A stretch of 64,000 bases of DNA from Lentibacillus sp. Marseille-P4043 (GTDB taxonomy: Bacteria > Bacillota > Bacilli > Bacillales > Amphibacillaceae). The notes beneath the pieces were generated by a model. That model was not told where the DNA came from. It saw only the letters and a list, made by a program, of their open reading frames with translations, and made no database searches. Location of the stretch: assembly GCF_900258515.1 (NCBI RefSeq), contig NZ_LT984884.1:3408499-3472498 (forward strand). The letters are read 5' to 3'. A program made the position numbers and the translations under genes. Of the stretch, positions 839-20,526 are shown piece after piece (position 1 is the first letter of the stretch; each line of letters begins with the position of its first letter).

Positions 839-2272
839 TTATAACGTTGTTTCTTTTTTCTTTCTCGGCGGTATGTGGATAGCGCTTTCCGTCAACCCTT
901 CTACTGCTTCTAGAATTGTTTCATTAAAACTTGGATGTGGATACATCGGAAAACGCAAATCTTCATCACGACCGACCATTTCGAGTGCTGTTACACCCGT
1001 ATTTACTAATTCAATAGCGCCAGCACCAATCGCATGATACCCTAATAGTAAATCTGTATCAACATCCTTAATTAGCTTTGTAACCCCGTTTTTTTCATTG
1101 GCAATCATTGCATAGCTGTTGCCACTATGCGAGAATTGACTTGTTTTTACGTTATAGCCCTGTTCGATAGCTTCCGTTTCTGTCAGTCCAACTGAGGCAA
1201 TTGGTGGCGTACTATGAACAACAGTTGGTATGAAAGTAAAATCAGCTTCACTCTGTAATCCTGCTATTATCTCCGCTGCTACTTTTCCTTGCTTAATCGC
1301 TTTTAAGGCAGATGGTGTTCCTGCTGTCACATCACCAACCGCAAAAATATGCTTTACTGTTGACCGCATTTGACTGTCTATATCGATATAGCCATCGTTC
1401 GTTATACGAATACCAATCCGCTCTGCTCCTAATGAATCAATCATTGGCTGTTGCTTCGTTTCAACATACACATGTGTTCCGGATATATCTTTTGCTTTTC
1501 CATCCTTTGACAGACTGATCTCTACAATTTGTTCAGAAGGTGTTAGCTTATCAATCGTATATCCTCGGTATACATTTATTTTTTCTTTTTTCAGTATGCG
1601 CTTCAGTTCCCTGTTTATGGTACCGTCAAATGGAAAATCAGTTTCTCCGTCTAAGACAATGGATACGTTGGCACCTAATTGATGAAAGCTAAATGCAACT
1701 TCTAATGAAATCGCATCCCGGCCACAGACAATTAGCTCCTCTGGCATTTCGTTATGATTGTAAACGGTGTCGGCAACTAAAAGGCGATCCTTATGATTCT
1801 GAAAACGTTCCGGAATGTCAGAGCTGCTCCCTGTTGCGATAATCGCATGCTTAAACTCAAACATTTCAAAACGATGACCAATTTCAACCCCGATTCGATT
1901 TTCAGCTAAGAAATTTGCCGTTCCTTTAACAACTTCAATCTGATTTTGAGTACATAACGCCTCCACCCCTTTTCTTAGTTGGGTGACTGTTTTTTCCCTA
2001 TATTTTGTTAACTGATCATAATCAAAGCTTGCCTCACCAGTGGAAATTCCCAATGATTTGAAATTCGAGATCGAGGCAAGTTGTTTGGCTGCATGGGTGT
2101 GAACTTTAGATGGGATACAGCCTTTATTTAAACAAACCCCCCCAAGTTCCGCTTTTTCAATTAACGTCACTTGAACACCTAATTGCGCTGCACGAATAGC
2201 GGCATTGTATCCACCAGGTCCACCACCAATAATGATCAGTTCACGTTGTTCTGCAAATTCTCCAACTACCAA
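839..2272 (-). CDS. lpdA: Dihydrolipoyl dehydrogenase (E3), with a degenerate NAD motif
   Basis: This is the FAD-dependent E3 subunit that reoxidises the dihydrolipoyl arm of E2 and passes electrons to NAD+. The 477-aa length is normal. The FAD fingerprint GGGPGG is at residues 16-21, the redox pair GGVCLNKGC has Cys47 and Cys52, and the C-terminal HPxxxxE motif has His446 and Glu451. Oddly, the second Rossmann fingerprint, usually GGGYIG, reads CGRDAIS at residues 183-189, so only one glycine remains. The start is TTG, three bases after the E2 stop, with GGAGTTGG upstream. It is the last gene of the operon. Family assignment is sure; full NADH-forming activity is less so because of that motif. 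Confidence 0.93.
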   Translation of the reverse strand: MVVGEFAEQRELIIIGGGPGGYNAAIRAAQLGVQVTLIEKAELGGVCLNKGCIPSKVHTHAAKQLASISNFKSLGISTGEASFDYDQLTKYREKTVTQLRKGVEALCTQNQIEVVKGTANFLAENRIGVEIGHRFEMFEFKHAIIATGSSSDIPERFQNHKDRLLVADTVYNHNEMPEELIVCGRDAISLEVAFSFHQLGANVSIVLDGETDFPFDGTINRELKRILKKEKINVYRGYTIDKLTPSEQIVEISLSKDGKAKDISGTHVYVETKQQPMIDSLGAERIGIRITNDGYIDIDSQMRSTVKHIFAVGDVTAGTPSALKAIKQGKVAAEIIAGLQSEADFTFIPTVVHSTPPIASVGLTETEAIEQGYNVKTSQFSHSGNSYAMIANEKNGVTKLIKDVDTDLLLGYHAIGAGAIELVNTGVTALEMVGRDEDLRFPMYPHPSFNETILEAVEGLTESAIHIPPRKKKETTL

Positions 2273-3493
2273 TTAAACCAACTCCAATAATAACTTTTTC
2301 GGATCTTCAATTAACTCTGTAAACCGGTTCGTAAATGAAATAGCCAATGCACCATCTGCAACCCTATGATCAAATGAGAGCGACATAGTCATGATGGAAC
2401 GAACTGCAATTTCATCATTTTCCATTACAACAGGTGTTTTTTTCGTTTTATGAAAGGCAATAATTCCTGTCTCCGGATGATTAATAATTGGTGTTGCGCC
2501 AACACCGCCAAGTGGCCCAACATTACTGATTGTGAATGTGCCATTTTTCATATCCTTAGGGGTTAATTTTCCATCCTGTGCCTTCTTTGTCAATGCCTTC
2601 ATCTCTTTGTTAATTGTTTGTAATGACTTTTTATCAGCTTGCTGAAGTACAGGAACCATTAATCCAGAATCAGTATTTGTTGCAAGCCCAATATTGTAAT
2701 CCGTTGCCAATCGAATAACTTCATTCTCTTCATCCAACCTTGCATTAAAAATACGATGCTCTTTTAACGTAATGACAATTGCCTTAATGAAAAAAGCTGC
2801 AACAGATATGTTCACACCATCTTCTTTAAGTTCATTGCGAAATTCAAGTACATTCGTTAAATCAGCCTCCTCAAAATGCGTTACATGTGGAATGGTAGTT
2901 AAAGAATGTGTCATTTTCGCTGCAATTTGTTTTCGTATTCCACTAAATGGGATTGTATCTGCTGCTGGTTGATCTGTGCTAAGGCTAGACGCATGATCTG
3001 GAACTTTCGCTTCTGTTTCAAGAGGCGGCGTATCACTTTTGGTAAATTGATAGACATCTGCGTCAGTCACACGGCCGGCGGGTCCTGTCCCGTGTATTTG
3101 TTCAATATCAATCCCAAGATCTCGTGCAATTTTTCTCGTATATGGTGCCGCCAAAATTCGTTTTGTTCGATTGGAGAACTCCTGTTGTTGTGGTATTGTT
3201 ATTTTCTCTGTTTCCTGATGATTTTCTATCTTAGGGGCTTGGGGTTGTGACCCGTCTTGACCGTTATCAATTTCGATAAGTACCGTACCAACCGTTATCA
3301 CATTTCCTGTTTCAAAATGAATTGTTTTAATTTTGCCTGCAGCTGGTGAGGGAATTTCCGCGACCATTTTATCTGTTTGCAATTCAACAAGTGGCTGATC
3401 AACCTTAACTTCATCACCCTCATTAACAAAGTAATGGAGAATTTCTCCCTCATTCATTCCTTCCCCAATATCACTAAATTTTACTTGAACCAT
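2273..3493 (-). CDS. 2-oxoacid dehydrogenase E2 (dihydrolipoyl acyltransferase)
   Basis: This is the core subunit that carries the acyl group on lipoyl-lysine and transfers it to CoA. One lipoyl domain occupies about residues 1-75, with the lipoylated Lys42 in LQTDKMVAE. An E1/E3-binding domain follows at about 113-150 (APYTRKIARDLGIDI). The catalytic domain ends in SFDHRVADG with His376 and Asp380. The 406-aa length fits branched-chain or acetoin-type E2 proteins with a single lipoyl domain. It begins 12 bp after E1beta with GGAGGTGCAATC as RBS. The substrate cannot be read from the sequence; context next to a PheDH-like gene and a thioesterase suggests an aryl-pyruvate or branched 2-oxoacid. 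Confidence 0.93.
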   Translation of the reverse strand: MVQVKFSDIGEGMNEGEILHYFVNEGDEVKVDQPLVELQTDKMVAEIPSPAAGKIKTIHFETGNVITVGTVLIEIDNGQDGSQPQAPKIENHQETEKITIPQQQEFSNRTKRILAAPYTRKIARDLGIDIEQIHGTGPAGRVTDADVYQFTKSDTPPLETEAKVPDHASSLSTDQPAADTIPFSGIRKQIAAKMTHSLTTIPHVTHFEEADLTNVLEFRNELKEDGVNISVAAFFIKAIVITLKEHRIFNARLDEENEVIRLATDYNIGLATNTDSGLMVPVLQQADKKSLQTINKEMKALTKKAQDGKLTPKDMKNGTFTISNVGPLGGVGATPIINHPETGIIAFHKTKKTPVVMENDEIAVRSIMTMSLSFDHRVADGALAISFTNRFTELIEDPKKLLLELV

Positions 3494-3504: not shown

Positions 3505-4527
3505 CTAAAAATTTACAACCTTTTGAATAGCATCTATTACACGATCAGGTGTCGGCAAATAATCATTTTCCAATGAAAATAATGGAACCGGAACATCGAA
3601 GCCTGTTACCCGCTGAATCGGCGCTCTTAGGTAAAGAAAAGATGTGTCATTAATGATCGAAGTAATTTCACTGCCAACCCCACCCGTTTCATGGGCCTCA
3701 TGCACAATAACAACTCTTCCCGTCTTTTGTACTGATTCTGCAATGATGTCCTTATCGAGCGGATACAAAGTCCTTAGATCAATGACATCACATGTAATAT
3801 TATGTTGCTTCATTTGCTCTGCAGAAGTCAATGCAATCGGCATCATCGCACCCCAGGCAAGAATTGTTACATCCTCCCCCGCTTCAACTAGTTTTCCTTT
3901 TCCAATCTCCACATGATATTTTTCTTTTGGTACATCCCCACGTTGCCCCCGATACAGACGCATTGGTTCTAAAAATAATACCGGGTCTGGATCCTCAATA
4001 GCTGCGATCAGTAACCCTTTTGCATCATGTGGTGTTGACGGACATACAACTTTAATTCCAGGCATATGTGTAAAAATCGCTTCCACACTGTCTGAATGGA
4101 TTTCTGGTGAGCGAACCCCCGCACCATATGGGGCTCGAATTACCATTGGCAAATGATAATGTCCAAGTGTACGAGTCCGAGTCCGCGTTACATGTGTCGC
4201 AATTTGTTCATAGGCGGGATAAATAAACCCAAGAAATTGTATTTCCACAACTGGCCTTAATCCATTCATCGCCATTCCTACTGCAGCGCCAACAAATCCA
4301 GCCTCACTTAATGGTGTGTCAACCACGCGATTTTCACCATACTTTTCCTGCAAGCCATCCGTTGCCCGAAACACGCCACCATTTTTTCCGATATCTTCCC
4401 CTAATAAAAGTGTGTGGTTATCCTCTGCTAGCATCACATCTAATCCATCATTAATGGCTTGTATCAAGGTAAAGGAATTTGTCTCGATTTTCTGTTGACT
4501 TCGCTGCTTTTCTAAAGACATTACCAT
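3505..4527 (-). CDS. 2-oxoacid dehydrogenase E1 component, beta subunit
   Basis: This subunit pairs with E1alpha to form the thiamin-diphosphate decarboxylase of the complex. The product has the transketolase pyrimidine-binding and C-terminal domains, with GEDIGKNGGVFRAT, the DTPLSEAGFVGAAVGMA helix and RAPYGAGVRSPEIHSDS, all typical of PdhB/BkdAB proteins. The chosen start is ATG 4527, just beyond the E1alpha stop and after an AGGGGGG RBS; ATG 4521 is also possible. An ATG at 4584 in the same frame would add residues that overlap E1alpha, so I reject it. The product is about 340 aa, the usual size. Confidence 0.93.
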   Translation of the reverse strand: MVMSLEKQRSQQKIETNSFTLIQAINDGLDVMLAEDNHTLLLGEDIGKNGGVFRATDGLQEKYGENRVVDTPLSEAGFVGAAVGMAMNGLRPVVEIQFLGFIYPAYEQIATHVTRTRTRTLGHYHLPMVIRAPYGAGVRSPEIHSDSVEAIFTHMPGIKVVCPSTPHDAKGLLIAAIEDPDPVLFLEPMRLYRGQRGDVPKEKYHVEIGKGKLVEAGEDVTILAWGAMMPIALTSAEQMKQHNITCDVIDLRTLYPLDKDIIAESVQKTGRVVIVHEAHETGGVGSEITSIINDTSFLYLRAPIQRVTGFDVPVPLFSLENDYLPTPDRVIDAIQKVVNF

Positions 4528-4529
4528 CG

Positions 4530-5594
4530 TTATTTGTTCCCCCCTAATGCCAAAAGGCTGTTCTTTTGTTTTTCGATTGTCCATGTAGGTTTTTCAAATA
4601 CGTAATCAAACATGTCGGCAATCTTTGGCTTGTTGTAAGACTCCATTTTTTCAATTGCCTCATCCAATTCTGTTTGAATAGCTTGATTGATTCCGGAAGC
4701 CCATTCCGCATCCCACATGTCATTATTTTTCATAAACCGATCCATACGTAAAACGGGATCTATTTCATCCCGCATATCATTTAATTTGTCTTGGTCGCGA
4801 TATTTGGATGGGTCATCCGCTGTTGTATGTGCACCAAACCGCCATGTAACAGCTTCAATTAATGTAGGACCATCCCCGCGTCGTGCTCGTTCAAGTGCTT
4901 CTTTCACAGCTACATGAACAGCGAAAACATCCATCCCATCAACCCGAATACCAGGGATACCGTACCCTTGTGCCTTTTGTGCAATTGTTTCCGAGTTCAT
5001 TTGTTTTTCAACAGGAAGTGATATCGCAAAGCCATTGTTCTGGTTTAAAAAAACAACTGGCGCTTTAAATACACTAGCAATATTAAGCCCCTCATGAAAA
5101 TCTCCTTCTGATGTTGCACCATCACCAAAATAGGCAATTGCTGCATTCGTTGTTCCTTTATACGTTTCTGCCATTGCAGCCCCTGCTGCATGAGGGATAT
5201 GTGTCGCAATCGGAATGGATGCTGGTAATATGTGTTTTTCTTTTGACGGCAAACAACCCTCAATCCGTCCATTCCAATGAAGCAACATTCGGTCCAGATC
5301 GGCACCAAATGTTAGTGTTGCACCATGATCTCGATATGTTGGAAACATCCAATCATTCTCCATTAATGCTAGAGCGCTTCCAACTTGAGATGCTTCCTGG
5401 CCTGTAAATGGCACATAGGTTCCAATGCGACCCTGACGCTGCAAAGCAACTCCTTTTTGATCGTACGTTCGAATACGCATCATGTGATAGTACAGTTGTT
5501 TCGCTTTTTCCTCGGTCAACTCCGAACGATATTCTTTCGTAACGATTTCCCCTGTCTGGTCAACAATTTGAAAAAGAGGATACATCTCCTTCAT
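4530..5594 (-). CDS. 2-oxoacid dehydrogenase E1 component, alpha subunit
   Basis: This is the thiamin-diphosphate-binding subunit that decarboxylates a 2-oxoacid and passes the acyl group to E2. The ThDP motif is seen as GDGATSEGDFHEGLN...NQNN, and the N-terminal part has GQEASQVGSALAL and YRDHGATL, as in PdhA-like E1alpha proteins. The length of 354 aa is usual. ATG 5594 follows GGTGGGATTGA; an internal ATG three codons on lies too close to its own AAGGAG. It follows the amino-acid dehydrogenase by about 27 bp in the same operon, so its 2-oxo substrate is probably the product of that enzyme. Confidence 0.93.
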   Translation of the reverse strand: MKEMYPLFQIVDQTGEIVTKEYRSELTEEKAKQLYYHMMRIRTYDQKGVALQRQGRIGTYVPFTGQEASQVGSALALMENDWMFPTYRDHGATLTFGADLDRMLLHWNGRIEGCLPSKEKHILPASIPIATHIPHAAGAAMAETYKGTTNAAIAYFGDGATSEGDFHEGLNIASVFKAPVVFLNQNNGFAISLPVEKQMNSETIAQKAQGYGIPGIRVDGMDVFAVHVAVKEALERARRGDGPTLIEAVTWRFGAHTTADDPSKYRDQDKLNDMRDEIDPVLRMDRFMKNNDMWDAEWASGINQAIQTELDEAIEKMESYNKPKIADMFDYVFEKPTWTIEKQKNSLLALGGNK

Positions 5595-5621: not shown

Positions 5622-6761
5622 TTACTCTTTGATATTCCACTTCGGTCTGCGGGTACGCACAAAGAAATTATTCCGGTTCTGTTCTTCTGTTAATCGTTTC
5701 TGGCATTTTTGATTTGCCGCCTCAACTGTTGTCACACAATCCAGATTTGCTTGTTCATAGATTTCCAACAGTGAATCATAGATTGCCTTTGTTTTTAGTA
5801 AAACACGCTCATGATTGGGACCATAAAGTTCATCTGCAACCTGTATTAGACCACCCGCGTTCACAATATAGTCTGGCGCAAATAAAATTCCTCTATCTAG
5901 AAGGTCTTGTGCATGACTATCTGCCTGTAATTGATTGTTTGCTGAACCTACGACAGCTTTTACTTTTAACTGCGAAATTGTTTGATCATTAATCACACCG
6001 CCCATTGCACATGGTACAAATACATCTGCATCAACATTATAAATATCCTCACTGTCCACTACGTTTACAATTGATCCCATTTCCTTAGCTTTTTCATTGA
6101 TTGCTTCAATTGATGCCGTATTAATGTCTGTTACATATAAATTTGCACCTGATTTTAACAAATGCTCAGAAACCTTAAATCCGACCTTTCCTAATCCCTG
6201 AACAGCATACGTTTTCTCTGCTAAACTATCATTTCCATACAAATATTGATTGGTCGCTTCTAAGCCGTATATAACACCCTGCGCAGTCGGTACTGATGAA
6301 TCACCACTGCCACCAAAAGCTTCAGGCACTCCATTAACGAAATTCGTTTCCTTTAACGCATGCACAAAGTCATCCATTGTGGTTCCCATATCTGTTCCCG
6401 TATAAAATCTTCCATTCAATGAATCTACAAATTGTCCAAATGCCCGAAACATAGCCGGAGACTTATCTTTTTTTGGATCGCCTATAATTACCGCTTTTCC
6501 TCCACCAAAATCGACATCAGCAGCAGCACATTTGGAGGTCATTCCTGCTGACAATCGGAGTACATCTTCAAGCGCATCATCAACAGTTGCATATGGATAC
6601 ATCCGTGTTCCACCTAAAGCGGGGCCAAGTGTTGTATCATGAATTGCGATAATTGCTTGTAAGCCTGTTTTAGGATCGTTACAAAACATCACCTGTTCAT
6701 GTTCAGCTATTTTTTGAAACGTATCGAGTTCCATTGTCCTGTTCTTTTCCAATTGTTTCAT
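5622..6761 (-). CDS. Glu/Leu/Phe/Val-type dehydrogenase, most like phenylalanine dehydrogenase
   Basis: The enzyme oxidatively deaminates an amino acid to a 2-oxoacid with NAD+. The family fold is clear: substrate lysines in GMTSK (Lys77) and FGGGK (Lys89), NAD motif VQGLGKVG, and [15 protein letters not shown] near the C-terminus. Several diagnostic stretches follow phenylalanine dehydrogenases rather than leucine dehydrogenases: [23 protein letters not shown] and [11 protein letters not shown], where leucine enzymes usually have NAAAGLNLGGGK, RYITAEDVGT and NAGGVINVADE. PheDH often also accepts tyrosine. ATG 6761 follows a GGGAGG RBS. Automated pipelines would probably label it leucine dehydrogenase. 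The comparison is from memory of the families and needs an alignment. Confidence 0.85.
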
Positions 6762-6791: not shown

Positions 6792-7202
6792 TTATCCTTC
6801 AGAATTTGCAGTTTCATATGTCCCAAGTTTTGCTTCAATTATTTTTTTAGGAAGTATGGCCTGTTTAACTTCCCCTTTTCCAATTAAACCTTGCTCATTT
6901 TCCACACAAACATCTGTCACAATTTCGCTTTTAGTAAAATCAGTGACAGTTGCTGTTACACTAATTTTCGTACCTAATCCAGAAGGTGCAATATGTTTGA
7001 CTGTCACAGCAGATCCCATTCCTTCTTCATGATCCTCCAAAAATGGCAATAAAAGTTTTCTTGAAGCCCATTCCATGTGGTATACCATAGATACCGTCGA
7101 ATACGCTGGATGCACGATTTCACCATCAAATTGTGCAACCATTTCATTTGTCACTACGGCAGTTAGAGTCGCTGAATCACCGACCTTCAACCCTTCTTTC
7201 AT
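6792..7202 (-). CDS. FlK-like hotdog acyl-CoA thioesterase
   Basis: This 136-aa protein resembles the fluoroacetyl-CoA thioesterase FlK family, which hydrolyses small acyl-CoAs. The start MKEGLKVGD parallels MKDGMRVGE of FlK. The catalytic triad residues of FlK (Thr42, Glu50, His76) have counterparts at Thr36, Glu44 (HMEWA) and His70 (VKHIAPSG), with the same spacing. ATG 7202 is preferred because GGATGG lies eight bases before it; upstream in-frame ATGs at 7214 and 7247 lack a spaced RBS. It is the first gene of the PheDH-E1-E2-E3 operon, so it probably hydrolyses the acyl-CoA made by that complex. The substrate is an inference. Confidence 0.8.
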   Translation of the reverse strand: MKEGLKVGDSATLTAVVTNEMVAQFDGEIVHPAYSTVSMVYHMEWASRKLLLPFLEDHEEGMGSAVTVKHIAPSGLGTKISVTATVTDFTKSEIVTDVCVENEQGLIGKGEVKQAILPKKIIEAKLGTYETANSEG

Positions 7203-7312
7203 TTGATTATCCATCCTTTCAAAATTACTAGATTTCGTCAAAAGCATGTTAATGATTATGTAGTTTCCAACCGTTTGTATCCGCTTTCATAATATCCGTT
7301 GAAATGATTTAC

Positions 7313-7411
7313 GAGCTAGTGCGGATATGATAGCTCATAAAAAATTAAAATATTTAAATATATCTGTATGTTACAATATTCTTTTTATTTAGTCAACAGT
7401 TAACAGTTAAC
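7313..7411 (-). promoter_or_regulatory. Candidate control region of the thioesterase-PheDH operon
   Basis: Three adjacent 7-bp direct repeats AGT(C/T)AAC fill 7391-7411. The last overlaps a minus-strand TTGACT, and TAACAT lies 17 bp further on, a weak sigma-A-like promoter. Downstream in the leader there is an inverted repeat GAGCTA-N12-TAGCTC (7313-7336) and the motif TATCCG or its complement occurs three times between 7278 and 7326. These look like regulator-binding sites. Which regulator uses them is unknown; the adjacent GntR protein is the first candidate. Confidence 0.4.
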
Positions 7412-7430: not shown

Positions 7431-7461
7431 AGTCCCCAATCCAATATATCGGACTAGGGAC
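7431..7461 (-). terminator. Terminator of the GntR gene
   Basis: The minus strand carries AGTCCC and its complement GGGACT around an imperfect inner stem, followed by ATTTTCG. It lies 20-50 bp after the GntR stop codon. It separates the regulator from the thioesterase operon, which then needs its own promoter. Confidence 0.55.
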
Positions 7462-7481
7462 TGAAGAAAATCCTTCCTATT

Positions 7482-8132
7482 TTATTTTGTATCAATATGC
7501 ATTAATACACCTTCCAAGCCTTTATTAATATGCTTTTTCATTATTGTTGCAGCTTCTTCCTCGTTTCCCTCTAACAAGATCTGATAAATCCGTTCATGCT
7601 CCTCAACAAAAGACGGGTAAAAGTCTCCGTTCACCATGCTTGTGCGCATATAATGAATCTTCGTCCTGATGACGTCCAATAATTCCATTAACTGTTTATT
7701 CTTTGATGCTGTAATGATAATATCGTGAAATTGCTGGTCCAATTTTCCCAATTCCATACTTTTATCATTTGCAAACGCTTGGCTTGTTTCTTTTAAATTT
7801 GTCGCCAATTGCTTTTGCTCTTCATCAGAAATATGCTTAATTGCCAAGCTGATCGCTAATGTTTCTAAACTCTCACGGCACTGAAAAATCTCCACAACAT
7901 CTTGAACAGTTGGCTGATAAACGCGAACAAAGCCATCATTATAATTAAGCAATCCATCTTGTATAAGCATACGAAGTGCTTCACGAACTGGCCCCCTACT
8001 AATACCAAGTTTGTCAGCCATCCTAGCCTCTACCACACGTTCAGAAGGTTGATAATCTCCCTCCAAAATTCCTTTTTTTATAATATTGTAGGCTTGCAAA
8101 TGGAGAGATTCAGGTTTAACAATACGACTCAT
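7482..8132 (-). CDS. GntR-family transcriptional regulator, FCD (FadR-like) subgroup
   Basis: This 216-aa protein has a winged helix at about residues 5-75 (SERVVEARMADKLGISRGPVREALRML is the recognition region) and a C-terminal all-helical FCD ligand domain with the usual metal/ligand positions (FHDIIITASKNK, EHERIYQILLEG). ATG 8132 follows GGAGGTCATT. It stands alone between two catabolic operons, with a terminator on each side, and is the natural candidate regulator for one or both of them. FCD ligands are usually carboxylic acids, which fits a hydroxyphenylacetate or 2-oxoacid signal, but the ligand is not visible in the sequence. Confidence 0.9.
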   Translation of the reverse strand: MSRIVKPESLHLQAYNIIKKGILEGDYQPSERVVEARMADKLGISRGPVREALRMLIQDGLLNYNDGFVRVYQPTVQDVVEIFQCRESLETLAISLAIKHISDEEQKQLATNLKETSQAFANDKSMELGKLDQQFHDIIITASKNKQLMELLDVIRTKIHYMRTSMVNGDFYPSFVEEHERIYQILLEGNEEEAATIMKKHINKGLEGVLMHIDTK

Positions 8133-8201: not shown

Positions 8202-8218
8202 AATAAAACGCAAAATAA

Positions 8219-8259
8219 AACCCGAATAGAAACGTTCCAAAAACGTTCCTATTCGGGTT
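8219..8259 (-). terminator. Terminator of the hpa operon
   Basis: A long hairpin pairs ACCCGAATAG-AAACGTT with AACGTT-CTATTCGGGT and is followed on the minus strand by TTTTATTTTG. It lies 30 bp after the succinate-semialdehyde dehydrogenase stop and marks the end of the 4-hydroxyphenylacetate transcript. Confidence 0.8.
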
Positions 8260-8288
8260 CATTCTCACTCATAGCAGAAGATCTTGCA

Positions 8289-9719: not shown

Positions 9720-9774
9720 TGTACACACCCCTAAAGTAATCAATTTTTCACTCTACTATTCTATTACACGAAAG

Positions 9775-11739: not shown

Positions 11740-11761
11740 GCTACCACTCCTCCCTTAAACT

Positions 11762-12322: not shown

Positions 12323-12799
12323 TTACGCGTATTCTTCTGCTTGATAGCACCCATACTTCCCGGAATAAAATGTTAGTGGGTGGCCATCTTTCAAATCTAG
12401 TTCAATCACTCTGCCGATAAATAGGGTGTGGTCTCCAACGACAAAGGATCGGTCTAGATCACAAACAATTGAAGCCAATGATCCATTCACAACAGGTACA
12501 TCACGGATTAATTCAAAATCGATGTCTTCTTCCTCTTTTTTCTGACCTGCGAAATGCATGGAAATATTTTGCTGTTGATCAGAAAGAATATTAACAGCGA
12601 ATTTGCCAGCCTGCTTAATCTTTTCAAGCATATGTGCATTGTTATCTATGGAAATAGAGATTAGCTTTGGATCCATCGAAACAGACATGAAAGCATTGGC
12701 AGTCATCCCCCGAATTTCACTTCCTGCTTTCGTTGTAATGACAGTCACCCCAGTGGCAAACTTCCCCATTGCATTCCGGAAAACGCGATCATCCATCAT
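12323..12799 (-). CDS. hpaC: 4-Hydroxyphenylacetate 3-monooxygenase, flavin reductase component
   Basis: This short-chain flavin reductase (158 aa) supplies reduced FAD to HpaB. The flavin-reductase domain is clear: MGKFATGVTVITT, GMTANAFMSVSMDPKLISISI, LDRSFVVGDHTLFIGRVIEL. ATG 12799 or the adjacent second ATG could start; GGAGC lies upstream. It stands directly downstream of a FAD synthetase gene, and hpaD and hpaB precede that. The specific substrate partner is inferred from the operon, since flavin reductases of this family serve many monooxygenases. Confidence 0.88.
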   Translation of the reverse strand: MMDDRVFRNAMGKFATGVTVITTKAGSEIRGMTANAFMSVSMDPKLISISIDNNAHMLEKIKQAGKFAVNILSDQQQNISMHFAGQKKEEEDIDFELIRDVPVVNGSLASIVCDLDRSFVVGDHTLFIGRVIELDLKDGHPLTFYSGKYGCYQAEEYA

Positions 12800-12826: not shown

Positions 12827-13648
12827 TTAAGATGAAACAGTAGTTGCTGCCGATATGCTGTTTAAAAATTTTATTGAAATGTCCTTTGCACTACAATCAA
12901 ATGGTTCATTCACAAATATTCTGTTATCAGTATATGAATTTCGGTAAAATACGCCATTGATCGTTTTTTTGCCATTCGATAGTTTTACTTCATATTTTCC
13001 CGGCTTTGGCAACATACCATTATCATGGATTTGTACAGCTAACACACCAGCTCTTTTTTGCTGGATTATTGCGCCTTTCAAGGTATAATTCATTCCTAAA
13101 TAATATGGAACCATTTCAATATTTCCTTCACTCAGCAATTCCCTTATACGTGTGGAGCTAATTTTTTGGCCATGAAATGTTTGTTTAGGAATAATACTTA
13201 AACCAAATTCCCCCTTTTTCGCTTCTTTTTTTAGGAAGTGTGTGTCACCTTGGGCTTTGAACCCAAATGTAAAGTCAAAGCCGACGACAACATGTTTCGT
13301 ATTTGTGGCTCTAATATAATTCGTTATAAAATCAATTGGAGGAAGGGAAGCGAATGACTTATTAAATGTAACAACAAATAATTTTTCCACTCCAAGTTCA
13401 GCCATTTTCTCAACCTTTTGTGGTAATGGTGTTAGATATTCCCTGTTTTTGTCCCCTTTAATGACTTCATCAGGATGCGGACTAAACGTCATTGCCGAAA
13501 ATACAATACCTTTTTTCTCCGCTATCTGTTTTGCACGATTCAACAATTGTTGATGTCCTAGATGTACGCCATCAAAAAATCCAATTGCCAGGACCTGTTC
13601 GTCACTATTTATTTGTCCGATCGGGTGTGTTACATAATATACTTCCAT
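12827..13648 (-). CDS. FAD synthetase-family protein dedicated to the hpa operon
   Basis: The N-terminal two thirds is a RibF-type FAD synthetase (nucleotidyltransferase) domain: AIGFFDGVHLGHQQLL, FSPHPDEVIKGD, VGFDFTFGFKAQGD and the ISSTRIRELLSEG motif. The C-terminal part (about residues 190-273) is a short barrel without the usual riboflavin-kinase PTxN motif, so it probably adenylylates FMN but does not phosphorylate riboflavin. The start is ATG 13648 with GGAAGGGAG upstream; longer in-frame starts overlap hpaD. At 273 aa it is shorter than the bifunctional housekeeping enzyme (about 315). Its place between hpaD and hpaC suggests local FAD supply for HpaB. Confidence 0.82.
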   Translation of the reverse strand: MEVYYVTHPIGQINSDEQVLAIGFFDGVHLGHQQLLNRAKQIAEKKGIVFSAMTFSPHPDEVIKGDKNREYLTPLPQKVEKMAELGVEKLFVVTFNKSFASLPPIDFITNYIRATNTKHVVVGFDFTFGFKAQGDTHFLKKEAKKGEFGLSIIPKQTFHGQKISSTRIRELLSEGNIEMVPYYLGMNYTLKGAIIQQKRAGVLAVQIHDNGMLPKPGKYEVKLSNGKKTINGVFYRNSYTDNRIFVNEPFDCSAKDISIKFLNSISAATTVSS

Positions 13649-13689
13649 TCTACTTCTCCCTTCCGTATTTTTTTCAAAGCTGTTATAAA

Positions 13690-14679
13690 TCACACAATGA
13701 AGTCAGGTTTTCTCTGTTCTAAATTTGCTTCACTAACGGAAACAGGCTGCCCTCTGTTTAAATCAACAAATTGCATTGCCTCATTAAACCAACTTTCAGG
13801 TGGTTCATGTCCCCAGAATGTTGCTCGTTGCGGATCGTCCAAATCCCATCGTATAGGCTCAAAATCAGAATCCCCTGTAAAATAATCACCAGTATACAAT
13901 TCAACACGGTTTCCATCAGGATCACGTAAATATAGGAAAAAGGCATTTGACAACCCATGACGTCCAGGACCTCGCTCAATACTGCTTGCATATCCAAGTG
14001 AAGCAAGGACATCACACGTGTGAATAACGCTCATTGGATCACTAAGCCAGAATCCTACATGATGCAAACGTGGGCCTTTACCATTCATAAAGGCGATATC
14101 ATGGACAGCCGGTTTACGGTGTAACCATGCAGCCCAAATATCATCATTTTTTGTTGTCGTATATTCCGAACAAGCGTAACCAAGTTCGTTAACATAAAAG
14201 TCGTATGCTTTTTGCACATTTGGTACCATACAATTAAAGTGATCAATTCGCTGCATCCTAGACCCTCTATATTGATCATAACGCTGCAGCATTCGTTCAA
14301 CTGTATCCATGCTGCAAAAGAATTCAATTGGAATGCCTGAAATATCTTGAACCCTTAAAGAACGCCCAATTGCATGTTGACTTCCGTTTTCAAACCATTT
14401 TGTCTGTATTCTCTTTCCCTCAAAGTAAGCCGCAAGTTTATCTAAATCTTCTTCTTGCTCTACTTTATAACTGATGACCTCGACACCTGGCTGATCTGCC
14501 TTTTTCAGCACATAGCTATGATGTCCCCGTTCCTCTAACCCTCTTAAATAGATATATTGATCATCAGATTCAGTCTCAATAAATCCTAACCCATTAACAT
14601 AAAAGTCTCTGGCAGCATTTAAATCTGTCACCCTAACAATTGCTCGGGCTGTACGGATAATGTTAAATTTTCCAGTCAT
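13690..14679 (-). CDS. hpaD: 3,4-Dihydroxyphenylacetate 2,3-dioxygenase
   Basis: This type I extradiol dioxygenase (329 aa) opens the ring of homoprotocatechuate. There are two VOC domains. The metal ligands His, His, Glu are expected in RIDHFNCMVP, LHHVGFWLSD and RVELYTGDYF, matching the Brevibacterium/Arthrobacter homoprotocatechuate enzymes. The N-terminal domain begins IIRTARAIVRVTDL. ATG 14679 follows a GGGGGGAA stretch. It lies 11 bp after hpaB. Confidence 0.9.
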   Translation of the reverse strand: MTGKFNIIRTARAIVRVTDLNAARDFYVNGLGFIETESDDQYIYLRGLEERGHHSYVLKKADQPGVEVISYKVEQEEDLDKLAAYFEGKRIQTKWFENGSQHAIGRSLRVQDISGIPIEFFCSMDTVERMLQRYDQYRGSRMQRIDHFNCMVPNVQKAYDFYVNELGYACSEYTTTKNDDIWAAWLHRKPAVHDIAFMNGKGPRLHHVGFWLSDPMSVIHTCDVLASLGYASSIERGPGRHGLSNAFFLYLRDPDGNRVELYTGDYFTGDSDFEPIRWDLDDPQRATFWGHEPPESWFNEAMQFVDLNRGQPVSVSEANLEQRKPDFIV

Positions 14680-14690: not shown

Positions 14691-16166
14691 TTACGCCTTT
14701 ACTAGACCTGGCTTCGAAACATTTAAACTATCAAGGAATTCCTTCACACGTTCTTTATATGGATCTTTGTCATAGTTATCAAAATAAGCCATTCCCATTT
14801 TGATTGGATCTCCAAAGAAATAATATTCATAATGGGTTTGCCGATTTCCAAAGGCGCTCATCGTTAAGTCCCAAGCTAAGCGGAATATTTGTACACGTTC
14901 ATATCCTTCCACATTTTTACCTTGCATTGCCCGGTGAAGAATTGGGCCAATTTCGTCATTTGAAAAGTCAGCATATGTCGGAATACCCATCAAACCAGAT
15001 GCCCCAAGAATACGTACAATTTCCGCCATACGCGGATATACACGCGGATACCAATTTCTAGCAGCGTCTAATGCAGCAAAATCCGGTGTCATCATACCCC
15101 ATTTATCAATTTTTGCATTATGTTCTGCCCTGTATAGATGCGATTTCATTGTTTCTAGTGTCAACATGATCTCGGTTCCCTTATCTTTGACATGTTGAAA
15201 ACCATCGATGCCAATCGAATCCATTAGTGTCAGTACGACACCAAGCAGGAATTCCGTTTTCGCTACCCCTTTGGAAATTACTTGATGAGACATATGGGAT
15301 ACAGCATTCGTTTCGCCAAATGCCCGATTACAAATAGATGAATTTTCACAAACAAAAACGCGATCCCAAGGCACGAGGACATTATCAAACGCTACTATCG
15401 TGTCCCCTTCTTCAAACGTTGCACTTAAAGGATGATCAAATTTGTTTTTTCCATAATCGAATGATTCACGTGATAAATACTTCAAGCCTGGTGTGTTATT
15501 TGGCAGGGCAAACGCAAGTGAATATGGATCATCAAGCTCACCTGACTTTTTAACAGTAGATGGGAATACAAGAATCTCATCTGTAATTCCACCTTGTGTT
15601 GCTAATAACCTGATTCCATCGACAATGATGCCTTCATCCGTTTTCTTTACAAGATGAAGTGCAACGTTCGCATCCTTTTGTTCCGCTTGGATTTTAGCAC
15701 GGTTCACCTGTGGATGGATAAGTGTATGGGTTAAACTAATATCATTCTCGCGTGCATACTCTGCATATTTCTTAGCGTTTTCAGCAAACATCGGGTCGCC
15801 TTCTGCAAAAAATTCACTAGCTTCTCCCATTGCCATTACATCAGCATTAAGATAGTCAGGCGAACGTCCCATTAATCCATTTGTAAAATGTTGCCATTCC
15901 ATTATTGCTTCACGACGTTCAATTAAATCGTCGATCGTTTTCGGAACCATAAATGTTTTACCAACTTTATTACCGGTAGTTGGATTCGTATAAAGCATTT
16001 TTTCTGGCCTTTCATATTGAAGGTCATACAGTTTTGCCATTGATTGAATAACATTTTTAAATGCTGCATGTTCCGTCACATCATCTACTCGTTCCCCATG
16101 AATATACACATTATTATTTGCTTTTTTTAGACGTTCAATATATTCTTTCCCTGTTTTTGCTGGCAT
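14691..16166 (-). CDS. hpaB: 4-Hydroxyphenylacetate 3-monooxygenase, oxygenase component
   Basis: This FADH2-using hydroxylase (491 aa) converts 4-hydroxyphenylacetate to 3,4-dihydroxyphenylacetate. The family signature is seen as TGKEYIERLKKANNNVYIHGERV at the start, HTLIHPQVNRAK, VDGIRLLATQGGITDEILVFPS and FDNVLVPWDRVFVCEN; the longest of these define the flavin and substrate site. The C-terminal helical domain is complete. It lies between hpaE and hpaD in the operon. Length and motifs match HpaB of Bacillaceae and Thermus. Confidence 0.93.
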   Translation of the reverse strand: MPAKTGKEYIERLKKANNNVYIHGERVDDVTEHAAFKNVIQSMAKLYDLQYERPEKMLYTNPTTGNKVGKTFMVPKTIDDLIERREAIMEWQHFTNGLMGRSPDYLNADVMAMGEASEFFAEGDPMFAENAKKYAEYARENDISLTHTLIHPQVNRAKIQAEQKDANVALHLVKKTDEGIIVDGIRLLATQGGITDEILVFPSTVKKSGELDDPYSLAFALPNNTPGLKYLSRESFDYGKNKFDHPLSATFEEGDTIVAFDNVLVPWDRVFVCENSSICNRAFGETNAVSHMSHQVISKGVAKTEFLLGVVLTLMDSIGIDGFQHVKDKGTEIMLTLETMKSHLYRAEHNAKIDKWGMMTPDFAALDAARNWYPRVYPRMAEIVRILGASGLMGIPTYADFSNDEIGPILHRAMQGKNVEGYERVQIFRLAWDLTMSAFGNRQTHYEYYFFGDPIKMGMAYFDNYDKDPYKERVKEFLDSLNVSKPGLVKA

Positions 16167-16194: not shown

Positions 16195-17715
16195 TTAATT
16201 TTTCTTCTTTCCGAATTGTGGAATATGGTGATCCTTCAGTGCAACATGAATAACTTGATGTTCTGTGTAAAAATCAAATGCATAGTGACCACCTTCTCTG
16301 CCAATACCACTTGATTTGGAACCACCAAACGGAATACGTAAATCACGAACATTTTGTGAGTTAATCCACAACATTCCCGAATCAACTGCCTGTGCTACCC
16401 GGTGTCCACGCTGAATATCTTTCGTCCATACATATCCGGCTAGACCGTATTCCACATCATTCGCCAACGCAATAACTTCTTCCTCTTCCTTAAATTTCAT
16501 TACAGTAAGAACCGGACCAAATACTTCCTCTTGGGCAACTGTTTTATCATTCGTAACATTTAAGATCATGGTTGGGGCTACAAAATTACCTTGCTTCATT
16601 GACGCTGGTACATTTCCGCTAACAATATCTGCCCCTTCTTCCTTTGCTATTTCCAAATAACGTTTTACATTGTTAAAATGTGTTGGATGAATAAGTGGCC
16701 CAACCTGTGTTTCCTCATCTAATGGATCGCCGACGACAATGTTATCCACTCGTTCTTTCAATCTTTCAACAAATTCATCATAAATACTTTCATGTAAGAA
16801 TAAACGTGAATTTGCTGTGCAGCGTTCCCCATTAAAAGAGAAAATCCCCCATGTACAAGCATCAAGTGCTCGCTCAAAATCTGCATCATCAAAAACAATA
16901 ATTGGTGATTTACCACCTAGTTCCATTGAATACCGTTTTAAAGTATCTGCACCATTCTTGGTAATTTCTGAACCTGTTTTCGTCTCGCCTGTAAACGAAA
17001 TTAATTTGACATCAGGATTGGCAACAAGGGATGCACCCGCAGTTTCGCCAAATCCGTGTACGACATTGAAAACCCCTTCAGGAAGGCCAACTGAATCAAT
17101 TAACTCCGCAAGTTTATTCGCTGTCAGCGGTGACCATTCCGCTGGTTTTAAAACAACCGTATTGCCTGTTGCCAATGCAGGAGCAATTTTCCATGTTTCC
17201 AGCATAAATGGTGCATTCCATGGTGTAATTAATCCGGCAACCCCAATTGGTTTGTGGATTGTGTAATTAATGAACTCGTCATCCACCTGGTAAGCTTCAC
17301 CAACCATTCTGCTTGATACCATCTCCGCATAAAAGCGAAAGTTTTTCGCGGCACGAGCAACCATTTTTTTCGTCTGACTGATCGGAAGGCCTGTATCATA
17401 CGACTCAAGTGGAGCAATTTCTTCCACATGTTCATCAATAACATCCGCTATTTTGTTGATAAATTCTAAGCGCTCGGAAACCTTCATTTTCCCCCATGGT
17501 CCCTTGAATGCTTTATCTGCCGCAGTAACCGCCTTATCAATATCTGCTTGATCGCCTTCAGCAATTTGATTGATTACTTCATTCGTAAACGGATTTAAAT
17601 TTTCAAATGTTTTACTTGATTCTGCATCCACAAATTTACCATTTACATACAATTGAATATCTTTTACATCTAAATCAGTTACCATTTGTTGTTTGTCAAG
17701 TTGCTTTTGCGTCAT
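16195..17715 (-). CDS. hpaE: 5-Carboxymethyl-2-hydroxymuconate semialdehyde dehydrogenase
   Basis: The ALDH enzyme (506 aa) oxidises the ring-cleavage semialdehyde with NAD+. It has TPWNAPFMLETWK, FTGETKTGSEI, the catalytic Glu in MELGGKSP and Cys in NGERCTANSRL, and the IPFGGSKSSGIGREGG end. PWNAPFMLETWK and NGERCTANSR are typical of HpaE rather than betaine-aldehyde types. ATG 17715 follows AGGAGTGAGC. It precedes hpaB by 28 bp. Confidence 0.9.
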   Translation of the reverse strand: MTQKQLDKQQMVTDLDVKDIQLYVNGKFVDAESSKTFENLNPFTNEVINQIAEGDQADIDKAVTAADKAFKGPWGKMKVSERLEFINKIADVIDEHVEEIAPLESYDTGLPISQTKKMVARAAKNFRFYAEMVSSRMVGEAYQVDDEFINYTIHKPIGVAGLITPWNAPFMLETWKIAPALATGNTVVLKPAEWSPLTANKLAELIDSVGLPEGVFNVVHGFGETAGASLVANPDVKLISFTGETKTGSEITKNGADTLKRYSMELGGKSPIIVFDDADFERALDACTWGIFSFNGERCTANSRLFLHESIYDEFVERLKERVDNIVVGDPLDEETQVGPLIHPTHFNNVKRYLEIAKEEGADIVSGNVPASMKQGNFVAPTMILNVTNDKTVAQEEVFGPVLTVMKFKEEEEVIALANDVEYGLAGYVWTKDIQRGHRVAQAVDSGMLWINSQNVRDLRIPFGGSKSSGIGREGGHYAFDFYTEHQVIHVALKDHHIPQFGKKKN

Positions 17716-17758: not shown

Positions 17759-18685
17759 TTAATGTTGAACCGTTTCCTTTACATCAGCGTAATCTTGTAA
17801 AACATTCTTAATTTCCGCTTGAAGTTCTTTCGAAGGTACATCCATTGGCATTCTTAATGTTGGATTGATTTTTCCAAGCATACCTAATGCAGCTTTTGCT
17901 GGTGCTGGATTTGTGTCCTTAAATAACACATCGTTAAGTGGCATTAATTCAAAATGTAAATCCTGGGCGCGTTTAATGTCTCCTTCGTTCCACGCATTGT
18001 GCATTTCTGCAACTTTAGCCGGCGCAACATTTGCAGTAGCACTAATGGAACCCGCACCACCGATAGCAAGCATCGGGTAACATAGTAATTCAATACCAGA
18101 ATATAGAAGGAAGTCCCTGCCACAATGAAGTAATACACGGTTAACATGTTCAAAATCTTTATTTGATTCCTTAACCCCAATAATATTCGGACAATCTTTG
18201 CTTAACCTTGCTAACGTTTCTACTTCAAGGTTAACCGCTGTTCTTCCAGGAATGTTATAGACGATAATTGGAAGATCTACAGAATCGGCAACTGTTTTGT
18301 AGTGTTTATATAGTGCTCCTTGATTTGGTTTGTTGTAATATGGAACAATTACTAACGCAGCATCCGCACCGATCTCAACTGCTTTTTTTGTTAAGTACAT
18401 CGTTTCATCGTGGTTTGTTGTACCGGTTCCTGGTAAAAACGGAACTCTCCCATCAATTGCTTTCATCGCTGTTTCCATTACCTTTACACGTTCATCTACG
18501 GTTAAAGAACTCGGCTCACCACTTGTTCCTGTTACCGAAATAGCATGGCTGCCACTTTTAATTTGCCAGTCAATTAAGTTTTCAAGCGATTCAAAGTCGA
18601 TGGAACCGTTTTCATTAAATGGTGTAATAACAGGACAAATGGAGATACCGCGCAATCGTTGCTTCGTTTCTTCAAGGTTAGGCAT
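17759..18685 (-). CDS. DapA-family class I lyase, possible hydratase-aldolase of the hpa pathway
   Basis: This 308-aa protein has the dihydrodipicolinate-synthase/N-acetylneuraminate-lyase fold: TGTSGEPSSLTVDER (carboxylate-binding loop, with Ser for the usual second Thr), VPYYNKPNQGALYKHY, YNIPGRT with the catalytic Tyr, and the Schiff-base Lys in IGVKESN. It leads the enzyme block of the hpa operon, and no HpaH hydratase or HpaI (HpcH-type) aldolase is present anywhere in the cluster. Some DapA relatives (NahE, PhdJ) hydrate an enone and cleave it to pyruvate plus aldehyde. It may therefore replace HpaH and HpaI here. The family is sure; the role is an inference, and lysine-pathway DapA is the alternative. 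Confidence 0.85.
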   Translation of the reverse strand: MPNLEETKQRLRGISICPVITPFNENGSIDFESLENLIDWQIKSGSHAISVTGTSGEPSSLTVDERVKVMETAMKAIDGRVPFLPGTGTTNHDETMYLTKKAVEIGADAALVIVPYYNKPNQGALYKHYKTVADSVDLPIIVYNIPGRTAVNLEVETLARLSKDCPNIIGVKESNKDFEHVNRVLLHCGRDFLLYSGIELLCYPMLAIGGAGSISATANVAPAKVAEMHNAWNEGDIKRAQDLHFELMPLNDVLFKDTNPAPAKAALGMLGKINPTLRMPMDVPSKELQAEIKNVLQDYADVKETVQH

Positions 18686-18811: not shown

Positions 18812-20410
18812 TTATTTAGAAATTACTTCCTTTTTCAATGTATCCGCACCTGTCTTGTTAGCATGTTTATCTTTAGTCATTAAACTAACGACAATAAAAA
18901 CTGCAGCAGATAGTGGTAAAGCATAAAATAATGGATCAATATGTGTCATGGGAAATCCAGCTAATGCTGTTTTTCCGAATAATGCGTTGGAAATACCAAA
19001 AGCAGCCGCCTCTTTTTCATGGAAAAATACAAAGCCAATAATACTGATCACAAAACCGACTACAACACTTGCATTAGCGCCAGTTCTTGTCCCCTTTCTC
19101 CAAAAGAGTGCCCCGATTAATACCGGCAAGAAACCAGCCGCACAAATTCCAAACCAGAATGCCGTTGCCTGCGCAATGACACCACCAGGTAACACATACG
19201 CAAGTAATACCGCTGCAACCATTCCAATAATAACGCCTAATCTTGCTAGTCCTGCCTTCTTTCCAAAGATCGATGTAATCCCCATTTTTTTCAAAATATC
19301 TTCACTAAAAGAAGATGCTTGTACATGAATGAGAGAACTTACCGTTGACAATACTGCAGAAACCGCAGTCAGTGTAAATAAATAAACAAACCAATCTGGC
19401 ATCATCTGACCAATTAAAATAGGAACAACCGTGTCTGGATTACCACCTGCCACACTCATAGAAAGCGCACCTTCTGTATTCGAGAAGTAGACATTACTAA
19501 GCGGTCCAATCATGTATATTGCACCAGTCATAAAAAATATAAATACCCCACCAATTAACACGGAACGGTATAAAGAACGATCATCTTTAACAGTCATAGC
19601 CCTCATTGCCAATTGCGGTTGGGCCAACACACCGATACCCACTCCCATTATCAATGTACTGACAAGTGTCCACCATAATGGTGATCCAAATTCTGGCATT
19701 GATGTCCAACCTTGGTGCCCTTGTGCTACCAAATCCTCCGGCACAAGATCTTTCATCGCTGTCAGAGCACTATGTCCAGCCGTAACACCACCGACAGCCT
19801 GATATGTTATAAAGAGAAAAATAGCCATCATCACTAGCATAACTAATCCAGCAAAAGCATCCGTATACATAACAGCCTTTAGTCCACCACTTAGCACATA
19901 TGCACTCACAACGGCAGCAATGAGAAAAAGGGCTACATGGAAGTTAACCCCTAACGCTTCTTCCAAAAAACGTCCCCCACCAACGAGAACGATACTCGTA
20001 TATGCCGGCATGAAAATAAAGATCATCACCCCGGAAAAAATAGTAATAAAATTAGACTGATAACGTTCCCCTAATAAAGATGGGAATGTAAACACATTTA
20101 ACTTCCTTGAAAGCCGCCGTATTCGGGTGCCGAAAATCGCAAAGGCCACAAAGACCCCTAATACAATATTCAAAAACGCCAGCCACAGCAAACTAAAACC
20201 ATATGACGAAGATACGCCTCCAAAACCAATCAGTGAAGACGTACTGATAAACGTGGCACCATAGGAAAGTGCCATGACAACAGGGTTTATGTTCCCACCA
20301 GCTACCAAGTAATCTGCCTCTGTAACTGTTTTTCGATATCCATAATAAGCTAAACCTGACATAATCAAAAAGTAAACAACAAGCAATGGAATAAATACGG
20401 CTAAGTTCAT
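18812..20410 (-). CDS. Sodium:solute symporter (SSS family), candidate 4-hydroxyphenylacetate uptake
   Basis: This 532-aa polytopic protein has about 13 membrane segments and SSS-family motifs: TEADYLVAGGNINP, GATFISTSSLIGFGG near the sodium site, and GAFWRKGTRTGANAS-like text after the last core helix. ATG 20410 is chosen because GGAGATGGAAAGGA precedes it and its ATGA overlaps the stop of the small upstream gene; a longer in-frame start at 20533 would overlap that gene entirely. As head of the hpa operon it probably imports 4-hydroxyphenylacetate or a related aromatic acid. The substrate is inferred from context only. Confidence 0.88.
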   Translation of the reverse strand: MNLAVFIPLLVVYFLIMSGLAYYGYRKTVTEADYLVAGGNINPVVMALSYGATFISTSSLIGFGGVSSSYGFSLLWLAFLNIVLGVFVAFAIFGTRIRRLSRKLNVFTFPSLLGERYQSNFITIFSGVMIFIFMPAYTSIVLVGGGRFLEEALGVNFHVALFLIAAVVSAYVLSGGLKAVMYTDAFAGLVMLVMMAIFLFITYQAVGGVTAGHSALTAMKDLVPEDLVAQGHQGWTSMPEFGSPLWWTLVSTLIMGVGIGVLAQPQLAMRAMTVKDDRSLYRSVLIGGVFIFFMTGAIYMIGPLSNVYFSNTEGALSMSVAGGNPDTVVPILIGQMMPDWFVYLFTLTAVSAVLSTVSSLIHVQASSFSEDILKKMGITSIFGKKAGLARLGVIIGMVAAVLLAYVLPGGVIAQATAFWFGICAAGFLPVLIGALFWRKGTRTGANASVVVGFVISIIGFVFFHEKEAAAFGISNALFGKTALAGFPMTHIDPLFYALPLSAAVFIVVSLMTKDKHANKTGADTLKKEVISK

Positions 20411-20526
20411 TCCTTTCCATCTCCTTCGTAATTCCAAAACACAACCCCAAATATGACGCAGCCAACTGCTGATAAAATCGTAGCAATCCAGGAAAGTGTA
20501 ATAATTCCATCTTCCATCCCAAGCAT
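20407..20526 (-). CDS. Symporter small accessory protein, 39 aa
   Basis: The gene starts at ATG 20526 after TTAGGAGGAATTGAATC and ends at TGA 20407-20409, overlapping the symporter start by four bases. The peptide begins MLGMEDGIITLSWIATILSA, continues as one hydrophobic helix to about residue 30 and ends in a charged tail (NYEGDGKE). Such 35-50 residue single-helix partners precede SSS transporters in many bacteria. Translational coupling suggests a 1:1 complex in the membrane. It is too short to be caught by usual gene-length cut-offs. Confidence 0.82.
   Translation of the reverse strand: MLGMEDGIITLSWIATILSAVGCVIFGVVFWNYEGDGKE

Follow-up and report, generated by a model that had tools for sequence, protein, structure and literature searches.

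A phenylalanine dehydrogenase-class and 2-oxoacid dehydrogenase unit beside a 4-hydroxyphenylacetate operon as a candidate tyrosine branch of an arylpyruvate dehydrogenase system in Lentibacillus

Gene content of the locus

The window analyzed here is a stretch of 64,000 nucleotides from Lentibacillus sp. Marseille-P4043 (contig NZ_LT984884.1, positions 3,408,499 to 3,472,498). It carries, side by side, a unit encoding an FlK-family thioesterase, a phenylalanine dehydrogenase (PheDH)-class enzyme and a 2-oxoacid dehydrogenase (hereafter the FlK unit), and an operon for the degradation of 4-hydroxyphenylacetate (4-HPA; the Hpa operon). A tyrosine link of the FlK unit is well supported by comparative genomics, and on balance we favor the view that the window represents the tyrosine branch of an arylpyruvate dehydrogenase system. 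An initial annotation had joined both gene groups into a tyrosine-to-succinate route; all genes it named are present in the window, each with a family match, and their order is not strictly the order of use that it had claimed. Two Hpa operon genes had not been listed, a DapA-family HpaI (17759-18685) and a FAD synthetase (12827-13693).

The genes of the FlK unit run on the minus strand in the order FlK-family gene, PheDH, E1α, E1β, E2 and E3, and a GntR/FCD gene immediately precedes them:

7482..8132, minus strand: GntR/FCD regulator, companion of the FlK unit (family matches)
6792..7247, minus strand: FlK-family (PF22636) thioesterase (112.7 bits, cut-off 27)
5622..6761, minus strand: PheDH-class amino acid dehydrogenase with Asn143 (ELFV dehydrogenase domains)
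4530..5594, minus strand: E1α (PF00676, 309.7 bits)
3505..4584, minus strand: E1β (Transket_pyr 141.7 bits, Transketolase_C 134.3 bits)
2273..3493, minus strand: E2 with one lipoyl, one E3-binding and one acyltransferase domain (Pfam Biotin_lipoyl 76.2, E3_binding 51.5 and 2-oxoacid_dh 284.3 bits)
839..2272, minus strand: E3, dihydrolipoyl dehydrogenase-like (TIGR01350, 393.5 bits, below the cut-off of 408.8)

The lipoamide-dependent 2-oxoacid dehydrogenase is thus complete, comprising E1α, E1β, an E2 with lipoyl, E3-binding and catalytic domains, and E3. The start codon of E1β is unsure, its open reading frame (ORF) overlapping E1α by 55 bases, and the FlK-family gene likely starts at 7202 (MKEG...) rather than 7247, because the alignment of its relatives begins at about residue 15.

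The Hpa operon and its divergent regulator comprise:

20888..21784, plus strand: divergent LysR regulator (family matches)
18812..20533, minus strand: sodium/solute symporter at the head of the operon (PF00474, 192.4 bits)
17759..18685, minus strand: HpaI-type aldolase of the DapA family (TIGR02313, 490.7 bits, cut-off 396.7)
16195..17715, minus strand: HpaE (TIGR02299, 788.9 bits, cut-off 638.35)
14691..16166, minus strand: HpaB, oxygenase component of 4-hydroxyphenylacetate 3-monooxygenase (TIGR02309, 828.3 bits, cut-off 480.2)
13690..14679, minus strand: HpaD, 3,4-dihydroxyphenylacetate 2,3-dioxygenase (TIGR02295, 447.4 bits, cut-off 321.4)
12827..13693, minus strand: stand-alone FAD synthetase domain protein (PF06574, 173.5 bits)
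12323..12799, minus strand: HpaC-like flavin reductase (PF01613 (Flavin_Reduct), 134.1 bits, over cut-off; NF042921, 139.8 bits, below the cut-off of 200)
10948..11739, minus strand: HpaG, N-terminal-type subunit (TIGR02305, 280.5 bits, cut-off 228.65)
10196..10951, minus strand: HpaG, C-terminal-type subunit (TIGR02303, 398.9 bits, cut-off 276.4)
9775..10158, minus strand: HpaF, 5-carboxymethyl-2-hydroxymuconate isomerase (PF02962, 166.8 bits, cut-off 26.5; NF011605, 115.9 bits, below the cut-off of 215)
8289..9743, minus strand: succinate-semialdehyde dehydrogenase (SSADH; TIGR01780, 677.4 bits, cut-off 646.35)

HpaG is encoded by two separate genes for its N- and C-type halves, and the symporter is a possible importer of 4-HPA. 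No match to the HpaH hydratase was found among the genes of the operon, the only part of the genome searched for it. The DapA family takes in hydratase-aldolases, so that the DapA-type HpaI could stand in for HpaH in the hydration step, which would account for the missing gene. The FAD synthetase shows no riboflavin kinase domain in its Pfam matches, lies inside the Hpa operon again in five relatives (L038, L057, L058, L059 and L071), and may supply FAD to HpaB and HpaC. The LysR gene adjoins HpaB in relatives L038, L057-L059, L069 and L071. An ORF at 11934-12230 was not taken as a gene, having no family match and overlying a dispersed repeat. This repeat, with GGTGAGACCCCGCAG, is present in three copies in the window (11740-12322, 26320-26334 and 43705-43719; shuffle mean 0.00), one of which falls in the hpaC-hpaG gap.

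Linkage with the Hpa pathway

We surveyed 159 genomes of the family and 397 of the order. An FlK protein was present in 17 of the 159 family genomes, and HpaD scored over its cut-off in 16 of these 17, compared with 19 of the 142 family genomes without FlK; the remaining FlK genome, G111, is a draft, and a fragment of HpaD lies at the end of one of its contigs. Across the order, where FlK was found in 127/397 genomes, HpaD accompanied it in 53/127 cases and occurred in 39/270 genomes without FlK. Fisher tests, which ignore relatedness, gave p = 1.7e-11 for the family and p = 8.8e-9 for the order.

The family relatives include Oceanobacillus, Ornithinibacillus, Virgibacillus and Lentibacillus. 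Of the 16 family FlK loci besides the window, 14 have PheDH beside FlK, 13 have E1α and E1β, and 12 have a GntR gene, once as a fragment. The closest PheDH among the matches listed, for which the 8000 candidates with the most common words were scored, is 95% identical and named 'Virgibacillus sp. FSP13'. Partial units (L032, L036, L037 and L033) also occur: G138 and G139 have GntR-FlK-PheDH without E1 nearby, the unit of G144 has no PheDH, and in G150 a cluster for phenylacetyl-CoA degradation (Paa) holds FlK without PheDH or E1.

The front enzymes are joined to Hpa genes in several different arrangements. Four Oceanobacillus genomes (the genus of Oceanobacillus iheyensis HTE831 and O. profundus) carry the unit with HpaD at a distance of 12-22 kb, in clusters holding LysR, HpaB, FAD synthetase, HpaC, HpaE, HpaD, HpaI, HpaG and HpaF; PaaA and PaaC had no match in these four genomes, nor in G144. 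We further fetched 20 loci around high-scoring PheDH genes, chosen largely for HpaD nearby, and in 16 of them PheDH lies between hpaC and hpaG. E2 is next in 15 of these 16 (one only 40% alike) and E3 is present in three, with the whole E1α-E1β-E2-E3 series inside the Hpa operon in G054 and G150; G054 gave no match to PaaA or PaaC. These two complete units (loci L116 and L124) have a membrane-protein-like ORF, NhaC-like by eye, between E3 and hpaG (L116 15750-17219, 489 amino acids; L124 15488-16888, 466 amino acids). Finally, Sporosarcina and Psychrobacillus hold Paa and Hpa in a common cluster, in which three of four loci read FlK-PheDH-E1-E2-E3 followed by hpaG and hpaF.

The link of PheDH and the 2-oxoacid dehydrogenase to Hpa, which had been drawn from the window's gene order, is supported by the single operon in 16 relatives, by the four Oceanobacillus genomes and by Sporosarcina/Psychrobacillus, and a PheDH site residue tracks it (see below). 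As to whether relatives keep the two operons apart, a possibility raised at the outset, the Hpa-linked relatives do not, whereas in G140 and other Virgibacillus-type relatives the FlK unit lies far from Hpa. HPPD did not score over its cut-off in any of the 159 family genomes, with weak matches far below it in 105; no homogentisate route is therefore seen in the family, and this route was rejected.

A PheDH site residue tracks the linked pathway

The window PheDH is set apart from the leucine dehydrogenase (LeuDH) class, as 40 rows scored at least 537 bits and the next row 397; database names of its close relatives are mixed (phenylalanine dehydrogenase; Leu/Phe/Val or leucine dehydrogenase). 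The PheDH of Bacillus sphaericus reportedly carries an Asn145 and accepts tyrosine, with mutation at this position shifting the preference between phenylalanine and tyrosine. We take residue 143 of the window PheDH, likewise an Asn, to be the equivalent of this position. The residue-145 work was not found in the open-licence literature of PubMed Central (PMC), and the B. sphaericus enzyme is reported to take L-dopa at 18 U/mg (PMC11750938).

Site 143 is Asn in 22/22 Hpa-linked PheDH rows, four Oceanobacillus loci among the Hpa labels being assigned by hand from distances (HpaD lies outside the fetched stretch) and Paa genes possibly lying past the fetched stretch in another, L185. Both rows linked to the two pathways together also have Asn. 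The 62 Paa-linked rows have Val (58), Thr (2), Ala (1) and Asn (1), the single Asn row being a Sporosarcina locus that ends before the place of hpaG in its relatives, and the 23 rows with neither pathway in the stretch have Asn (15), Val (6), Ser (1) and Cys (1). Twelve loci had first been omitted from these counts (nine repeating a genome or locus, plus L055, L056 and L061), and internal stops cost no row. At the genome level, HpaD was found in 38/39 tested genomes with an Asn enzyme versus 26/48 with a Val enzyme, where 18 rows fell outside the HpaD test and a genome holding both types is counted under each; among named genomes, the corresponding values were 10/10 and, for Val controls, 1/6.

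In a quickly built, midpoint-rooted PheDH tree with support from Shimodaira-Hasegawa-like approximate likelihood ratio tests (SH-aLRT) only, the window enzyme groups with mostly Asn enzymes in a clade of 39 rows (SH-aLRT 100). Sporosarcina and Psychrobacillus form a four-row Asn clade (99) within the Paa-type branch, for which a second gain of Asn would be the simplest, though not a forced, reading. In the E1α tree, the window protein lies in a 13-row clade (100/100) together with the Hpa-embedded E1 of G054 and G150, and the Asn-associated rows fall into three supported clades.

Transcription units and regulation

Signals around the two operons suggest separate control:

7392..7411, minus strand: operator-like inverted repeat that overlaps the promoter-like site of the FlK unit
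7396-7368, minus strand: promoter-like TTGACT-17-TAACAT upstream of the FlK unit
7431..7462, minus strand: terminator-like hairpin after the GntR gene
791-767, minus strand: terminator-like hairpin after E3
8218..8260, minus strand: terminator-like hairpin of 20 pairs after SSADH

Owing to the hairpin at 8260-8218 after SSADH, the two operons appear to be separate transcription units. The promoter-like scan is weak on its own (6 found versus 5.9 expected in shuffles). Among 12 relatives checked, the operator-like palindrome upstream of FlK is exact in six, has two mismatches in four Oceanobacillus loci and is missing from both L032 and L036. Its sole exact match in the own genome is the FlK-unit promoter; at up to two mismatches, the 85 + 76 matches lie below the 108 + 133 of a reversed-pattern control, and therefore the exact site alone is meaningful. 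With a single exact palindrome in the whole genome, an operator shared by both operons was rejected. Shared regulation, considered at the outset, is likewise not supported, as a separate GntR gene, operator-like site and terminators go with the FlK unit, and LysR with the Hpa operon. The GntR protein would control the front unit and LysR the Hpa operon.

Paa-linked relatives and paralogues in the own genome

We read 36 of the 126 order FlK loci (window aside). E1α and E1β are present in 36/36, PheDH in 35/36 and Paa genes within the stretch in 32/36. The own genome also has a Paa cluster, which contains a second PheDH, 65% identical to that of the window, beside an E1α and E1β with 56% and 66% identity to the window's. 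No FlK, E2 or E3 was found near this PheDH-E1 pair in the fetched stretch. The genome encodes four E2 proteins, namely those of the window, of a complex resembling branched-chain 2-oxoacid dehydrogenase (BCKDH-like), of a further complex assigned by exclusion to pyruvate dehydrogenase (PDH), and one beside an OGDH-type E1. As none accompanies the Paa-linked E1, the latter presumably borrows an E2. A comparable division is seen in the fetched loci of G095 and G101 (L039+L107 and L040+L106, respectively), where E1 lies among the Paa genes and E2 within the Hpa operon, and the E2-E3 core may be shared between a phenylalanine and a tyrosine arm.

Identity of the complex and the thioesterase

A branched-chain, pyruvate or acetoin dehydrogenase is unlikely from genome context and the E1α tree. 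The E1α of the BCKDH-like complex, with which a LeuDH-class gene lies (C1:2603215; 49% identical to the window PheDH), is a far outgroup to the window E1α on a long branch. Thr51, Glu59 and His85 of the FlK-family protein, presumably the FlK catalytic triad, are invariant in 76/76 aligned rows, and an active thioesterase is therefore likely. Against FlK itself the protein reaches no more than about 34 bits, its nearest solved relative being 2cwz ('thioesterase family protein', 76.6 bits).

Other features of the window

Ten ORFs scanned in 26000-64000 appear unrelated; among them are ABC transporter parts, a ketoacyl synthase, CoiA, a histidine kinase and a class I tRNA synthetase of the W/Y type. 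No RNA element reached the gathering threshold in 1-26000.

Proposed route and closest known systems

In the route that we favor, the presumably Tyr-tolerant, Asn143-bearing PheDH would convert tyrosine to 4-hydroxyphenylpyruvate with NAD+. The dedicated E1-E2-E3 complex, judging from its linkage, would oxidize this to 4-hydroxyphenylacetyl-CoA, yielding a second NADH, and the FlK-family thioesterase would plausibly release 4-HPA and CoA. HpaBC, HpaD, HpaE, HpaF/HpaG, the DapA-type HpaI and SSADH would then degrade 4-HPA to pyruvate and succinate. The decarboxylase and aldehyde dehydrogenase route also leads from 4-hydroxyphenylpyruvate to 4-HPA, but passes through no CoA ester.

Several known systems resemble parts of this arrangement. 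The HpaBCDEFGHI meta-cleavage pathway shares HpaB, HpaD, HpaE, HpaF, HpaG and SSADH with the window, which differs in its split HpaG, DapA-type HpaI, added FAD synthetase and adjoining PheDH/2-oxoacid dehydrogenase unit, and in having no HpaH in the operon. The FlK fluoroacetyl-CoA thioesterase shares family PF22636 and the aligned Thr/Glu/His with the window protein, which is nonetheless nearer to 2cwz. For Exiguobacterium sibiricum, the available part of the 2008 genome paper proposes PheDH and an adjacent 'pyruvate dehydrogenase' for phenylalanine (PMC2615787). The locus of strain 255-15 (L194) has PheDH followed by E1-E2-E3, as in the window, and FlK before PheDH with Paa genes beside; in contrast to the window, it carries Val at the PheDH site, its genome gave no HpaD match at 1e-60, and the proposal in that part of the paper concerns phenylalanine only. 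Gut anaerobes convert arylpyruvates to arylacetyl-CoA by 2-oxoacid:ferredoxin oxidoreductases, one of which shows about 50% relative activity with 4-hydroxyphenylpyruvate (PMC13290082). That route employs a ferredoxin enzyme, is anaerobic and releases the acids, whereas the window combines a lipoamide complex with ring cleavage. For Rhodococcus ruber, a PheDH cluster and the homoprotocatechuate pathway are named, but not joined, in the part of the paper at hand (PMC6498646). A tyrosine route via a CoA ester was not described in the open-licence PMC literature searched (titles and abstract openings), and what appears new is the tyrosine variant of an arylpyruvate module previously proposed for phenylalanine.

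Weighing of the alternatives

A number of observations weigh against the favored tyrosine route. The commonest form of the FlK/PheDH/E1 unit accompanies Paa, and 74/127 FlK-positive order genomes have no HpaD, so that FlK is no step towards Hpa there. FlK is missing from all 16 loci with Hpa-embedded PheDH, and 12 of these 16 genomes, G054 included, have no FlK match at all; in the other four (G095, G101, G104 and G150), FlK lies in the Paa cluster. Since FlK is thus absent from most genomes with Hpa-embedded PheDH and present where HpaD is absent, the release of the free acid is the least secure element of the proposal, and the initial view of the thioesterase as an Hpa-specific step is not supported. 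Either another thioesterase would act in the genomes without FlK, or FlK would serve as a general arylacetyl-CoA valve. ORFs in seven gaps of seven Hpa-embedded loci, inspected without a family search, revealed no other thioesterase, an unusual kind being possible; the gaps in L122 and L123 hold HpaG and E2 genes. In addition, the whole-genome palindrome search found no further copy of the operator at the promoter of the Hpa operon, the nearest solved structures of the window PheDH are leucine dehydrogenases, and TIGR03181 labels the window E1α as pyruvate dehydrogenase, over cut-off. Residue 143 is also an imperfect guide, given the 26 Val-enzyme genomes that also have HpaD; in four of the Val-type loci (G352, G215, G191 and G293) HpaD lies 13-21 kb from FlK, and therefore Hpa nearby alone does not bring Asn.

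The alternative that survives best, although doubtful in our judgment, is a general aromatic module, in which one E2-E3 core would serve two E1 pairs for phenylpyruvate and 4-hydroxyphenylpyruvate, and FlK would be a CoA-recycling valve for any arylacetyl-CoA. The 12/16 Hpa-embedded PheDH genomes without FlK count in its favor and against the tyrosine route. The Paa-linked E1 pair without an E2 beside it, the divided E1 and E2 of G095 and G101, and FlK in the Paa clusters of HpaD-less genomes all fit this module. The Asn/Val split and the separate PheDH and E1 clades, in contrast, point to specialized front enzymes, and the four Oceanobacillus genomes and G144 retain the unit without PaaA/PaaC.

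A phenylalanine module, placed beside Hpa by chance, would agree with Paa as the commonest neighbor in the order and with the Exiguobacterium proposal. It is nevertheless improbable, as the own genome already has a Paa-linked PheDH-E1 pair, and neither the repeated union with Hpa nor the Asn at the PheDH site would be expected. About as improbable is a unit that forms an arylacetate, be it phenylacetate, 4-HPA or indoleacetate, to be exported or to maintain redox balance, with Hpa serving external 4-HPA: the thioesterase throws the CoA ester away, a symporter heads the Hpa operon and gut anaerobes form such acids with ferredoxin-dependent enzymes (PMC13290082), but aerobic ring-cleavage genes share the operon in 16 relatives. 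An ordinary pyruvate, branched-chain or acetoin dehydrogenase, to which the TIGR03181 match would point, is very improbable, with the E1α proteins of the BCKDH-like complex and presumed PDH far outside the window's clade on long branches.

The tyrosine route thus remains the reading to which we incline. Beyond it, we tentatively picture a two-armed system in Bacilli, possible but not the likelier case, with PheDH/E1 duplicates for phenylalanine (Val; to Paa, the CoA ester kept) and tyrosine (Asn; to Hpa, the ester hydrolyzed, here by the FlK-family enzyme). A single shared E2-E3 core would, in this genome, be encoded in the tyrosine unit.

If the tyrosine route holds, aerobic Bacilli would possess a tyrosine pathway that conserves 2-oxoacid oxidation as NADH by way of an aryl-CoA ester. 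It would also replace the name-based labels (pyruvate dehydrogenase, leucine dehydrogenase, FlK) on a unit found, as judged by FlK, in 127/397 order genomes, and the Asn/Val site would offer a candidate one-residue marker for tyrosine-linked PheDH.

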